A stretch of 41,063 bases of DNA from a virus. This document shows, one piece after another, positions 4,272 through 41,063 of this stretch. Under the pieces are notes generated by a model, which worked only from the letters and a program-made list of their open reading frames with translations, did not search any database and was not told the DNA's origin. The stretch is from positions 1 through 41,063 of the IMG/VR virus record IMGVR_UViG_3300031670_000003; one strand, given 5' to 3'. The position numbers and the translations under genes are program-made. How positions within the stretch are numbered: position 1 is the stretch's first letter; every line of letters starts with the position of its first letter.

Positions 4272-5563
4272 TTCTCAATCTCTCCCCACGTCGGCCCCGC
4301 CCCGTACTTGCTGGCCACGGGCACGATCATCTTCCCCTCCCCCGCCGCGGCCAGCAGATCCCCCGCCATTCCCCCGAACACGTCCACCAGCTCCAGGGGG
4401 ATCTCAAACAGCAGCTCATCGTGGACCTGCAACAGCGGCTCGCAGCCCATCGAACTCCACACGTCCCACTGGCTCCATATCTTCGCCATGCCCGTTTTGA
4501 TGATCCCCTGCGCCCCGCCCTGGATCGGGTGGTTCACGATCTCCCTCAGCCCCTCCGCCCTGATCCTCTCCACGCTGGACACCCCTTGCGGGTAGTACCT
4601 GCGCCGGCCCCACATGTCTTCAATCCACCCCACCCGCCGCGCGTGGGAGCGGTTCTCGTCCTTCCAGTCCCTCACCGCTGGCCGCGCATCGTGCCACCGG
4701 GCCACGAACTGCTCAGCCTCCCCTTCGGTGTACCTGATCCTCTTCGCCTGGTCGCGGTAGATGCCATAGAGCCGGAACTGATCGAGAAGGCCGCGGCCCC
4801 CCATATCGTTCAGCACTCCGAACCCCACCGTCTTGCCGATCTGCCTCTGCCCGGCGTCCACCCCGCCCGCCGGGATGGAGAAGCAATCGGCCGCGCTGAT
4901 CCGGTGGATATCGTTCTCCGGGTTCTTGGGATCGTCCACCGCCCGCCAGAACAGCGCCACCATGCCATCGTCGCCCGACTCCGATGCGGTCACGCGCATC
5001 TCAATTTGGTCCAAGTCAATCGAGAAGATCGCCTTTCCCGCCGACGCCACGAATCCCTCCCGGACCCGGCGCCCGATCTTGCTCCGGGTGGGAATGGCGA
5101 GCAGGTTCAACCTCTTGGGGTGGCTCGCCGCCAGCCGCCCGGTGGGGACGCGGGTGATGCGGAGATCGGGATGCACCCGCCCATCGGAGTCCGCGCAGAT
5201 CGGTATGCGGTCCACATAGCGGACCTTGAGCACGTGCAGCTCGCGGTAGTCAAGGATCATGTCCACGACAGGGTGCGTGTCCCGGAGCCCGCTCAGCACC
5301 TTGTCGTCAGCCTGCCACTGCCCGGTGCGGGTCTTGCGCGGCTCAGGCAGGCCTAGATCCCCGAAGAGGAACTGGCCCACTTGCGGGGCCGAGTTGGGGT
5401 TGAGGAACCTGCCTACGGATGATGTGATCTCGGCCTGCTTAGCTTCGAGGAGCCCGGCCAGTTCGCGGGAGAAGGCGGCGAAGAAGGCGGGGGAGATCAG
5501 CATCCCGGTGGACTGCATCCGGTCCACCATCGGGATCACGGCGTGGTCGAGATCGAGGATCAT
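4268..5563 (-). CDS. polA: family A DNA polymerase, polymerase domain only
   Basis: A 431-residue protein holding only the palm/fingers/thumb part of a Pol I-type enzyme. Motif A is Ser-Ile-Asp-Leu-Asp-Gln-Ile-Glu (Asp173, Glu178). The O-helix has Arg230, Lys234 and Phe238, matching E. coli Arg754, Lys758 and Phe762. Motif C is Val-His-Asp-Glu (371-373). The position equal to E. coli Tyr766 is Asn242, which is unusual. There is no 3'-5' or 5'-3' exonuclease domain; the proofreading exonuclease is probably supplied by the gene at 7404. The ATG overlaps the upstream stop (ATGA). Long Arg/Gly-rich frame extension upstream is another gene's shadow. Confidence 0.95.
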   Translation of the reverse strand: MILDLDHAVIPMVDRMQSTGMLISPAFFAAFSRELAGLLEAKQAEITSSVGRFLNPNSAPQVGQFLFGDLGLPEPRKTRTGQWQADDKVLSGLRDTHPVVDMILDYRELHVLKVRYVDRIPICADSDGRVHPDLRITRVPTGRLAASHPKRLNLLAIPTRSKIGRRVREGFVASAGKAIFSIDLDQIEMRVTASESGDDGMVALFWRAVDDPKNPENDIHRISAADCFSIPAGGVDAGQRQIGKTVGFGVLNDMGGRGLLDQFRLYGIYRDQAKRIRYTEGEAEQFVARWHDARPAVRDWKDENRSHARRVGWIEDMWGRRRYYPQGVSSVERIRAEGLREIVNHPIQGGAQGIIKTGMAKIWSQWDVWSSMGCEPLLQVHDELLFEIPLELVDVFGGMAGDLLAAAGEGKMIVPVASKYGAGPTWGEIEK

Positions 5564-31132: not shown

Positions 31133-31157
31133 TGTGAGTTGCGGCAAGATCAGGATA

Positions 31158-31313
31158 TCACATAGACTGCGACCCCGACCGCGACCACGACCCCGACCAC
31201 GACCGCGACCCCGAGCGCGACCACGACCACGACCCCGACCACGACCGCGACCGCGACCACGACCGCAACCGCGACCACGACCGCCGATTCAGTTGCCACG
31301 TGGGGAGCATCAT
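31158..31313 (-). CDS. Arg-Ser-Trp repeat peptide on hexanucleotide repeat
   Basis: A 51-codon frame starting at an ATG that overlaps the upstream stop (TGATG). After Met-Met-Leu-Pro-Thr-Trp-Gln-Leu it is made of (Trp/Arg/Gly)-Ser dipeptides. A second frame of the same repeat (from a GTG about 25 bases on, no ribosome site) would give a Val/Ala/Gly-only hydrophobic peptide of about 49 residues. The coupled start favours the Ser/Arg/Trp frame, but either or neither may be made. Confidence 0.4.
   Translation of the reverse strand: MMLPTWQLNRRSWSRLRSWSRSRSWSGSWSWSRSGSRSWSGSWSRSGSQSM
31171..31284. repeat. tandem hexanucleotide repeat (GACCNC)19
   Basis: Nineteen consecutive 6-base units of form GACCNC, with N mostly C, G or A; only two units deviate (GAGCGC and AACCGC). 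It lies inside the coding frame at 31158. Length changes in such a repeat stay in frame, so it could vary between relatives. Confidence 0.9.
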
Positions 31314-32185: not shown

Positions 32186-32548
32186 TTAGTCCTCCCACCT
32201 CTCAGACAGCCGACTCCCCAGCCGCGCGCGGAACTCCAGCGGCACCTCCGACGTGTAGACCCTCAGCCGGGGCTGGTTGACCCGCCGGGCAGTCCGCCAC
32301 ACCGCGCTTTGCCAGTCGGACTTCCACTTGCGTCCGACACCGTAACCGGGGCGATGCCGGTTGATGCGGTCCGCCGCCCCTTCCCGGAACTCCCGCACGG
32401 CCTCCGCCGCCGTGATAGGCCACCAGCCGCAGCAGCCATGCTTGAGAACCGTGTCCGGCGGGAGAGCCATAGCCGTGCGCCACGCCCGCGCGTAGGCGCC
32501 GAGTGGGATCTGCTTGCCGTTCGCCAGTACGATCACGCGCACAGCCAT
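32186..32548 (-). CDS. conserved phage hypothetical protein
   Basis: 120 residues from Met-Ala-Val-Arg-Val-Ile-Val-Leu. It has a His-Gly-Cys-Cys-Gly-Trp-Trp-Pro-Ile-Thr segment, then a basic helical part ending Gln-Pro-Arg-Leu-Arg-Val-Tyr and Phe-Arg-Ala-Arg-Leu. Similar phage proteins end the same way, to my recollection, without known function. Start overlaps the upstream stop (TGATG). Confidence 0.65.
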   Translation of the reverse strand: MAVRVIVLANGKQIPLGAYARAWRTAMALPPDTVLKHGCCGWWPITAAEAVREFREGAADRINRHRPGYGVGRKWKSDWQSAVWRTARRVNQPRLRVYTSEVPLEFRARLGSRLSERWED

Positions 32549-32760
32549 CAGACTTCCTCCGCGCGCAAATGCGCGCAGACCGGGCAGTTGGTCTGGTCCG
32601 AGCAGCCCCGCCGATGGACACGGGCCGCGATGCGCCACTCCTCCAGCGACGCGAGCGCCTGAAAGAAGTTCTCCATCCACGCCCGCCGAGAACTCAGCAG
32701 GCTGTCGAGGAGTTCGTTGTCCCCCTCTATTGTGGCGTTTACCGCGCCTCTCATTCTCAT
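32548..32760 (-). CDS. small Cys-containing helical protein
   Basis: 70 residues with a helical body and a C-terminal Cys-Ser-Asp-Gln-Thr-Asn-Cys-Pro-Val-Cys-Ala-His (about 53-64) that could bind zinc. It is preceded by leader copy 1 (32766-32813) with GGAGGGG as the ribosome site. Unknown function. Confidence 0.65.
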   Translation of the reverse strand: MRMRGAVNATIEGDNELLDSLLSSRRAWMENFFQALASLEEWRIAARVHRRGCSDQTNCPVCAHLRAEEV

Positions 32761-32765
32761 TTCAG

Positions 32766-32813
32766 TTGCCCCTCCTCAGGGCATCCCCACTTTCGCCGGT
32801 GAGGGCGGGCTAG
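32766..32813 (-). promoter_or_regulatory. repeated structured leader, copy 1
   Basis: First of four related leaders. Leftward: a stem CCTCAC/GTGGGG around a GGCGAA-type loop, then ATGCCC, a GCCCT/GGGGC stem-loop holding GAGGA, then the next start. Read with the copies at 33045, 33526 and 33822. Confidence 0.65.
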
Positions 32814-32814
32814 G

Positions 32815-33039
32815 CTACTCCTCCACCTCGACACTCTCGACACTAGGGGCATCGGACGCCAGCGTATCCTGCCCATCCTCCCAACGGACGAAGCCCAGCA
32901 GGCTGGGCTGGCCGGTAGCCAATAGCGTCTCTCCGGGGGCCATCACTGTGCCGATGGCCGGATCGAGGCACCCGGTAGAGCTGTCGCGCCAACGGACCCG
33001 GGTGCCGGGCTTAAGCGCCCCAAACTGCTTCGTTGTCAT
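32815..33039 (-). CDS. small beta-barrel-like protein
   Basis: 74 residues: Leu-Lys-Pro-Gly-Thr-Arg-Val-Arg-Trp-Arg-Asp near the start and Gly-Thr-Val-Met-Ala-Pro-Gly-Glu, as in small SH3/KOW-like barrels, then an acidic tail. Preceded by leader copy 2. No family recognised. Confidence 0.65.
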   Translation of the reverse strand: MTTKQFGALKPGTRVRWRDSSTGCLDPAIGTVMAPGETLLATGQPSLLGFVRWEDGQDTLASDAPSVESVEVEE

Positions 33040-33044
33040 CTTCC

Positions 33045-33090
33045 TTGCCCCTCCCAGGGCATCCCCACTTTCCCGGTGGGGGCGGGCTAG
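33045..33090 (-). promoter_or_regulatory. repeated structured leader, copy 2
   Basis: Leftward: CCCCAC-CGGGAAA-GTGGGG hairpin, ATGCCC, then GCCCT/AGGGGC around GGG, with the ribosome site inside, six bases before the start at 33039. Confidence 0.65.
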
Positions 33091-33311
33091 ATCGTCCGGC
33101 CCGGCAGGACCAAAAATTCCATCTGCGGGCTACCCGGCTGGACAGCCAGCGCCATCCAGTCGGCTCCGCACCGCGAGCACCTGACCACGATCAGGGAGTA
33201 GCTGGGGTGCCAGACCAGCCATTGGCCAGTCCCCGCCGGGCAGTCGGGGCAGCCCAGCCGCGCGAATTGCAGGGGCAGGTCGGCTGCCCCCGCCACGGGG
33301 ATACTAGTCAT
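33087..33311 (-). CDS. small zinc-ribbon protein
   Basis: 74 residues with Cys-Pro-Asp-Cys (about 20-23) and Cys-Ser-Arg-Cys (about 44-47) separated by a beta segment, a standard four-Cys ribbon. Starts eight bases inside the end of the upstream gene. Likely a nucleic-acid or protein adaptor. Confidence 0.7.
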   Translation of the reverse strand: MTSIPVAGAADLPLQFARLGCPDCPAGTGQWLVWHPSYSLIVVRCSRCGADWMALAVQPGSPQMEFLVLPGRTI

Positions 33312-33519
33312 TGGGGCGAGCCCACTCGCCCCGATTCAGGCGGCCCTGGTTCTGCTCGCTGCGGCGTACCGCCCCGCAGGAGCAGCGGTCCACGACCAGC
33401 AGGCTTCCGTGCGCGCGCTGGCGCAGAGAGTCCGCTGCGCAGGCGTTGGGCGTGACGCAAGCGGTCCAACCGCGTTCGGTTTGTTTCGCCGTGATGGCGC
33501 GATGCCGATGAGTAGCCAT
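33304..33519 (-). CDS. small Cys-containing basic protein
   Basis: 71 residues from Met-Ala-Thr-His-Arg-His-Arg. Cys residues near 20, 26 and a Cys-Ser-Cys pair near 46 suggest a metal site. An in-frame ATG eight codons upstream belongs to leader copy 3, so a longer form is possible. The start chosen has GGAGGGG nearby. Confidence 0.6.
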   Translation of the reverse strand: MATHRHRAITAKQTERGWTACVTPNACAADSLRQRAHGSLLVVDRCSCGAVRRSEQNQGRLNRGEWARPND

Positions 33520-33525
33520 TGTCCT

Positions 33526-33571
33526 CGCCCCTCCTTGGGGCATCCCACCTTTTGCCGGGTGGGGCCGGCTA
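33526..33571 (-). promoter_or_regulatory. repeated structured leader, copy 3
   Basis: Leftward: CCCACC/GGTGGG stem, then ATGCCCC and GCCCC-AAGGA-GGGGC, which places the Shine-Dalgarno AAGGAG in a loop. Stem bases differ from copies 1 and 2 but still pair. Confidence 0.65.
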
Positions 33572-33817
33572 TAGTTCCTTCGCCGTCACCATCGCCCGCT
33601 CCGCTTCGGCCTTAGCTGCCGCTTGCGTCCTGCAAACTCCTCGCCCCACGCACGCATCCCCCATCCCGGTGCGGCTATAGGACTCCACTTGCCGGGCGCG
33701 GTCGCTTACGGTCCAGTGCCAGGCGCGGCCGTGGCCGTGGCCCCTCACCGTAGCCTCCAAGGCTCCGGCAGTGGCCGAGAGATTGCCTACCATTCCCCAT
33801 TCGGTCCAGGTGGTCAT
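33569..33817 (-). CDS. small hypothetical protein
   Basis: 82 residues from Met-Thr-Thr-Trp-Thr-Glu-Trp. Mixed beta/alpha with an Ala/Glu-rich helical C-terminus (Ala-Ala-Ala-Lys-Ala-Glu-Ala-Glu-Arg-Ala). Looks like a short dsRBD-like or signal-less cytoplasmic protein. Preceded by leader copy 4. Confidence 0.6.
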   Translation of the reverse strand: MTTWTEWGMVGNLSATAGALEATVRGHGHGRAWHWTVSDRARQVESYSRTGMGDACVGRGVCRTQAAAKAEAERAMVTAKEL

Positions 33818-33821
33818 TTCT

Positions 33822-33868
33822 TTGCCCCTCCCAGGGCATCCCATGCTTTCCCGGACTTGGGACCGGCC
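33822..33868 (-). promoter_or_regulatory. repeated structured leader, copy 4
   Basis: The most diverged copy. Leftward: CCCA..GTCCGGGAAAGC..TGGG stem with one mismatch, then ATGCCCTGGGAGGGGC as in copy 2. First leader of the set in transcription order. Confidence 0.6.
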
Positions 33869-33911
33869 GCTCTCGCGGGTGCATTAGGCCGCCGAAGCGG
33901 CCCCCTCTGCG

Positions 33912-34130
33912 CTACAGGGTGTACCCGGCCCTGCGGGCCTCTGGGTCCAGGGCGATGTCATACGCCCCCGCCTGCTCCAGGATGCGCACTCCAGCGCTGA
34001 TTGCGGCCTGCAGTTCCGCCGCCGTCTCGGCGCTGATCGCATCCACGCGCCGACCGCCAGCCGGACCGGGCAGCGTGTACCGTACCTCTACGGTTACCGG
34101 CTCCTCCTCGTATTCAGCTTTGATATTCAT
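33912..34130 (-). CDS. small acidic hypothetical protein
   Basis: 72 residues: Met-Asn-Ile-Lys-Ala-Glu-Tyr, a beta segment (Val-Thr-Val-Glu-Val-Arg-Tyr-Thr-Leu) and an Ala-rich helix. The ribosome site is weak (GAGG close to ATG). First gene after the promoter at 34166. Unknown function. Confidence 0.6.
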   Translation of the reverse strand: MNIKAEYEEEPVTVEVRYTLPGPAGGRRVDAISAETAAELQAAISAGVRILEQAGAYDIALDPEARRAGYTL

Positions 34131-34165
34131 GCCTCGTAGCCCCCTAGCTACTCACCAACACAATC

Positions 34166-34194
34166 AGAATATTCCAGCCGCTTAGCATTGTCAA
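34166..34194 (-). promoter_or_regulatory. sigma70-type promoter for the accessory operon
   Basis: Leftward: TTGACA (-35, 34189-34194), exactly 17 bases, TATTCT (-10, 34166-34171). The surroundings are AT-richer than the coding DNA. It would drive the genes from 34130 to the terminator at 31095, probably early, by host polymerase. Confidence 0.75.
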
Positions 34195-34277
34195 CAACTA
34201 TTTTGCCCAATGTTTACGCGGCTTTTCGCAATCCACGCTATAAACTCCGCATTCCACGCGGCTAGAATAGCCTGAAA

Positions 34278-34919: not shown

Positions 34920-35309
34920 CGTCACAACCTCCATTATCAGTATTGTATAGTAACCGACTACGCCACGATTAAAACTGGAATTTTACGTAATACATACCCC
35001 ACAAGTCCTTTGTTTTCGAGCGCCAATATGGGACCGATTCGCTTTCCATTCGCTTCATGGGGGGTATATTTTCCCAGTGTTTTCGCGCAAGCCGGGAGCC
35101 GGAATGCATCACAGCGTGGCGGTACCTAAGATCTATTGGTCTAGAATCGTTGTGTATATTCATCGGCCTCAACCCAAGTCCTTGCGGGGGGTACAGTTTA
35201 CGTTTTCGGCCTCCAGGGGCTTTCGGGGCGAATCGCACCACTTTTCCCCAGTATTCTCGCGGGTTCTGTCCTTAACCCCTTATGGATTTTGAGTGTTACA
35301 CAATAAGTA

Positions 35310-35327
35310 CCCGCAAGTCCTTGCGGG
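35310..35327. repeat. perfect palindromic repeat
   Basis: CCCGCAAGTCCTTGCGGG: two 8-base arms around TC. Flanking TAC and GTA nearly extend the symmetry. Identical to the copy at 35369. No U-run, so a protein site is likelier than a terminator. Confidence 0.85.
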
Positions 35328-35368
35328 GGTATGCAGTGAATGAATACATGCATTCAGTCCTGCATACT

Positions 35369-35386
35369 CCCGCAAGTCCTTGCGGG
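35369..35386. repeat. perfect palindromic repeat, second copy
   Basis: Exact copy of the 18-base palindrome at 35310, 59 bases further on, followed by TGGTACTAC. Nearly the same half-site plus flank occurs at 12531. Confidence 0.85.
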
Positions 35387-35423
35387 TGGTACTACTTGCG
35401 AAATTCGATGTACCCCCCGCAAA

Positions 35424-40555: not shown

Positions 40556-41063
40556 ATGGCCTCCACCACCCTGGCCCAGCTCGCCGCCTCGATCTCCAAG
40601 GGGGAGGGGTACGGCGCTTCCCCCTCGAACCGCCCCACCCGCACGAACAACCCCGGCGATCTCACCGGCTCCGGGTATGCCGGCCAGATCGGCACCGACC
40701 CCCAGGGCTTCGCCATCTTCTCCTCGCCCCAGGCCGGCCAGCAAGCCCTCCAGCAGTACCTCTCCCAGCATCTGGACCAGGTTGGGTCCGGGAGCGGCCC
40801 CTACGGTTCACTGACGCCCTCCAGCACCCTCCAGGACTTCCTCAACGTCTACGCCGGGAACCCGGATGCGGGATATGTGAGCACCGTCGCCCAGGGTGTG
40901 GGCGTAGCCCCCACAACGACGCTGGGCGAGATCCAGGCCCTGCTCGGAGCCCAGGGGGTCGTGTCCCCCAGTTCCCCCGTTCCGGCCTCCCAGGGGACAA
41001 CCACGGGCCTGGATATAGGCCCTGTGGTCGCGGGGTGGGCTCCGGGATCTGCCGCGGGGGTGG
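40556..41063 (+). CDS. membrane-anchored peptidoglycan hydrolase, 5' part (continues at 1..199)
   Basis: The gene runs through the circular junction (40556 to 40944, then 1 to 199), 195 residues in all. Residues 1-125 are a lysozyme-like domain: candidate catalytic Glu17 in Lys-Gly-Glu-Gly-Tyr-Gly, Arg-Pro-Thr-Arg-Thr-Asn-Asn-Pro-Gly-Asp-Leu (26-36) and Gln-Gly-Phe-Ala-Ile-Phe. The pattern and Glu position match the endolysin at 17143. A Ser/Pro/Gly linker and C-terminal membrane helix follow, so it is probably carried in the virion and opens the cell wall at entry. Transcribed separately from the lysis cassette. Confidence 0.85.
   Translation, partial: MASTTLAQLAASISKGEGYGASPSNRPTRTNNPGDLTGSGYAGQIGTDPQGFAIFSSPQAGQQALQQYLSQHLDQVGSGSGPYGSLTPSSTLQDFLNVYAGNPDAGYVSTVAQGVGVAPTTTLGEIQALLGAQGVVSPSSPVPASQGTTTGLDIGPVVAGWAPGSAAGV
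40945..41063. repeat. terminal direct repeat (circular overlap), right copy
   Basis: Exact duplicate of bases 1-119. See that entry. Removing one copy gives a 40,944-base circle with an intact gene across the join. Confidence 0.93.

Follow-up and report, generated by a model that had tools for sequence, protein, structure and literature searches.

On balance, we read the four-copy repeat of this phage as a phage-specific duplicated translation leader spanning from stop codon to start codon, with a predicted twister ribozyme that would split the mRNA at the first junction and three further copies that are probably related to the twister leader. Four copies were found, each fitted exactly between the stop of one gene and the start of the next, and one of them overlaps a match to the Twister-P5 self-cleaving ribozyme, with which it has a hairpin in common.

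The window, which is the whole stretch of DNA analysed, is an IMG/VR virus record of 41,063 bases with 64.6% G+C. The genome is probably complete, because it contained a 119-base direct terminal repeat at positions 1-119 and 40945-41063. The genes revealed included a family A DNA polymerase, a uracil-DNA glycosylase, a Sak4-like gene and a helicase. DNA comparison with named phages gave no real match, and no relatives were found of the helicase or of a 577-aa protein. Besides Twister-P5, neither tRNA nor other Rfam RNA was detected in the genome. Two other repeats were also observed: a 12-base repeat array (GACCNCGACCNC-like) at 31153-31312, in or near a short minus-strand open reading frame (ORF), and nested CAAGTCCTTGCGGG repeats at 35309-35422, including an inverted pair of 28 nt, 23 nt apart.

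The leaders are located in an array of tiny genes on the minus strand, ordered Z, A, B, C, D and E (72, 82, 71, 74, 74 and 70 aa). All are called as ORFs: gene Z (33912-34130), the first of the array, whose UAG stop abuts the twister; gene A (33569-33817; GC3 0.74); gene B (33304-33519), with a weak match to phrog_12017 of unknown function; gene C (33087-33311), which overlaps the end of gene B and has no leader in front; gene D (32815-33039); and gene E (32548-32760). Ahead of this operon we found a putative sigma-70-like promoter, TTGACA-17-TATTCT, at 34194-34166 on the minus strand, matching 10 of 12 consensus positions; one such sequence was found against 0.4 expected in shuffles, and the call is weak alone, with a position that fits the array.

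A covariance model built on the four copies (R1) recovered exactly these in the 41-kb genome, all on the minus strand: copy 1 at 32811-32758 (76.7 bits), copy 2 at 33088-33037 (74.2 bits), copy 3 at 33570-33517 (77.7 bits) and copy 4 at 33868-33815 (60.7 bits), the last ending in the SD hairpin and the gene A ATG. Their E values ranged from 8e-16 to 8e-21 and the next best match reached 12.6 bits, confirming the four copies seen by the sequence-only reading. Each leader occupies the entire UAG-to-ATG gap with almost no spare bases, the gaps measuring 94 nt at copy 4 (ribozyme included), 49 nt at copy 3, 47 nt at copy 2 and 54 nt at copy 1. The stop is UAG at 4/4 leader junctions compared with 8 of the 32 other minus-strand genes, which suggests that the stop belongs to the repeated unit. 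The proteins encoded downstream (70-82 aa) are not paralogues, with a best cross-match of E 0.11; because they are unrelated to each other, the gap sequence alone, from UAG stop to SD, was duplicated, and the earlier proposal of a mobile-like repeat that "spread with small genes" does not hold as worded.

The first stem has 6 bp in copies 1 to 3, and in copy 4 two of the six pairs are non-standard, so that the stem claimed for every copy is kept in three. Every copy forms the second stem, GCCCY/GGGGC, with a GGA loop and GGGGC as its 3' arm, and the SD is partly sequestered, in line with the claim that this stem holds the ribosome site. This SD hairpin folded alone at -7.3 to -9.1 kcal/mol; in sequence context it was predicted in copies 1, 2 and 4, and the result was mixed in copy 3. 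Paired changes of stem bases, which had also been claimed, were found at two of the six first-stem pairs, while four of the five stem 2 pairs are invariant and therefore carry no covariation information. The first-stem covariation score was matched by 20 of 500 shuffles, and slid versions scored far lower. The covariation is only modest because the copy 4 stem is broken at two pairs, and thin because it comes from four copies in one genome, with no relative found. The evidence for selected RNA structure in the leaders is thus positive but modest. The folding stability of the whole leader was no better than that of shuffles (z -0.3 to -1.2), and alternative nested folds were better for copies 1, 2 and 4. 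The stop-SD-ATG position in all four copies and the SD hairpin agree with the leader role within the suggested translational switch, and the "switch" part gained nothing from our analysis. One candidate for it, a GGG-AUG-CCC hairpin freeing the SD, was judged, without computation, too weak against stem 2.

The predicted Twister-P5 (Rfam RF02684) is located at 33911-33851 on the minus strand, and its 61 nt match the model end to end (positions 1-58 of 58) with 47.7 bits against a cut-off of 37.6. The conserved GCAGAGGG, UAAUGC and GGUCCCAAG are all present, and both P1 (GGCCGC-UUCG-GCGGCC, capped by UUCG) and P4 (CCGG/CCGG) are closed. Its first base is the base directly after the gene Z UAG, and its P4 hairpin (GCCGGUCCCAAGUCCGG) is identical with the 5' 18 nt of copy 4. 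The cut, which we take to be in CCU^AAUGC, is predicted between 33886 and 33885. This ribozyme overlapping copy 4 had been overlooked by the sequence-only reading. The suggestion of an mRNA processing site is supported at one of the four sites, where the 3' hairpin of the predicted ribozyme is the start of copy 4. In the region 32500-34200, the twister models matched copy 4 only, and none of copies 1 to 3 up to an E value of 10; these three also matched no Rfam ribozyme. They are without the GCAGAGGG and UAAUGC blocks, and the P4-like hairpin is all that they have in common with the twister.

Copies 1 to 3 open with such hairpins: GCC/GGC in copy 1, CCCG/CGGG in copy 2 and GCCGG/CCGGC in copy 3. 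Against dinucleotide shuffles, the likeness of their 5' ends to the twister P4 stood out (p about 0.0007), and a P4-like helix was present in 4/4 copies (p about 0.0008, short segments shuffled), both tests being post hoc on GC-rich sequence. The loop of the P4-like hairpin contains the 5' arm of the first stem. Because copies 1 to 3 begin with this hairpin, the first stem probably serves as helix two of an H-type pseudoknot; the P4-like helix would be the other, and GAAA or AAAA the third loop. Pairing of the twister L4 with a downstream UGGGA was also considered; it was not enriched among twisters (6 against 6.1 expected), so such pairing in copy 4 is not a general twister feature.

A pattern scan of IMG/VR for Twister-P5 gave 72 stretches, and 129 matches were found in 22 records, with a maximum of 20 per contig. 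Among 100 distinct twisters, an upstream reading frame ends close by in 88, the stop being mostly at ≤5 nt, and in 34 of these 88 the G of UAG doubles as the first base of GCAGAGGG. An SD and a start follow in 93 of the 100, at a median of 28 nt past GGUCCCAAG, and the next gene has a median length of 86 aa. In the array of locus L236, Twister-P5 is found at nearly every gene junction; in the array loci, including L235, L236, L237 and L239-L241, it is located between the stop of a small gene and the next SD. The array contigs gave no blastn match to named phages. Other variants were observed: locus L247 contained a type II hammerhead (Hammerhead_II, 4863-4926) inside its Twister-P5 array, followed by a promoter-like TTGACA...TATAAT sequence, and L234 and L244 contained twister-like elements with the GCA/UGC pair swapped for GGU/ACC or GCG/CGC. 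An enrichment of twister and hammerhead ribozymes in the neighbourhood of Mu-like phage genes has been reported, its cause unexplained (PMC10085705), and we found no paper on twister arrays among open papers.

Relatives of the leader were sought in several collections. Exact-pattern scans of IMG/VR with three leader forms gave only chance matches inside other sequence, and among the matches listed for one leader form in GTDB genomes all were likewise by chance. R1 gave nothing convincing on the 72 twister loci, nor on 53 virus records chosen because they were related, bore a twister or matched a pattern. Outside this genome it scored best (17.3 bits) on a twister 3' tail, which is expected because copy 4 is in the model. 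The DNA polymerase relatives (24-40% identity) were without Twister-P5, and R1, run on four of them, made no convincing leader match. Since these searches gave no relatives of the leader, its function is inferred.

We propose that the 3' half of the leader would act as an SD-presenting hairpin (GGA loop, GGGGC stem), setting translation initiation of the next gene with the SD on the hairpin loop; cluster K mycobacteriophage SAS might present theirs likewise (PMC3203893). In the 5' half, the loop of a compact hairpin would pair with the bases that directly follow the hairpin, forming the H-type pseudoknot, and this half may shield the SD hairpin from the gene upstream. The 5' half at the first junction is the P4 hairpin of the predicted Twister-P5. 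Cleavage at 33886/33885 would leave the gene Z message with the UUCG-capped P1 hairpin as its 3' end, and the downstream message with the P3 and P4 hairpins at its 5' end, followed by the SD hairpin. Copies 1 to 3 have this kind of leader but no ribozyme core, and no cut would occur there. These copies were probably derived from, or evolved towards, a post-cleavage twister leader; they may be twister-derived remnants formed by core loss from a copy 4-like unit, with the reverse order possible.

The leader might be instead an operator through which one RNA-binding protein of the phage represses or activates four tiny genes together, in the manner of T4 gp32 or RegA. One structured site precedes four unrelated genes, the SD region is within the leader, and the possible H-type pseudoknot with its A-rich third loop has a T4 precedent (PMC3014915); however, no candidate repressor was identified in the phage, and RegA, which acts at many start sites, uses sites that are unstructured and A+U-rich (PMC3014915). 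We consider such an operator unlikely. We would put at about the same low level a DNA-level duplication of an intergenic repeat under no selection for RNA structure, copied because it offers a stop codon together with a good SD. The stem 2 block, 17-20/20 identical among all copies and nearly invariant, could come from a recent duplication, and the fold stability already given fits this too, but the first-stem pairing survives two double changes, and the 5' half diverges while its P4-like helix is kept in 4/4 copies.

It is most improbable that copies 1 to 3 represent a new and very compact class of self-cleaving ribozyme, composed of a GAAA/AAAA-loop H-type pseudoknot and a hairpin, replacing the twister at the other junctions. 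These copies do occupy the stop-to-start niche of Twister-P5, and ribozyme classes can mix in arrays, because Hammerhead_II sits inside one of them; pistol, hatchet and twister-sister ribozymes were discovered by the same shared-niche logic (PMC10085705). Against it, copy 4 carries the leader downstream of an intact twister, which would make a further ribozyme superfluous there, and copies 1 to 3 are very compact and match no Rfam ribozyme.

Under the twister-related leader that we favour, the hairpin common to copy 4 and the twister points to cutting and repackaging of the phage mRNA at gene boundaries. A predicted twister is placed exactly between two genes and has a hairpin in common with a leader that is found again, there with no ribozyme, at three further boundaries. 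The niche points to a role in which polycistronic phage mRNA would be cut into shorter messages, every newly made end bearing a hairpin, in front of a standard translation leader.

Compared with known systems, the element is like Twister-P5 (RF02684) at copy 4, where the 61 nt leading into and overlapping the copy fit the full model with a score over the curated cut-off, and differs at copies 1 to 3, where the ribozyme blocks are absent and only the P4-like hairpin is common. The T4 gene 32 leader carries a pseudoknot upstream of the ribosome site, through which gp32 represses (PMC3014915). In our phage leader, a pseudoknot may likewise lie 5' of the start site; it is a prediction, would precede four genes instead of one and has other sequence. 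The SAS/ESAS of cluster K mycobacteriophages are repeated directly before the starts of unrelated genes (PMC3203893), and their members carry GGGATAGGAGCCC ahead of start codons, two deviations being the most allowed. This consensus was absent at the four leader sites up to 3 mismatches, and its 16 matches in the whole window were below the 21 expected by chance; by sequence, the leader is outside SAS. It also extends back to the stop codon, unlike SAS, and its stem and loop sequence differ. In likeness, both hold the SD in a short hairpin, the SAS GGG-AUAGGAG-CCC folding in the same way by computation, and some SAS have an extra inverted repeat upstream (PMC3203893).
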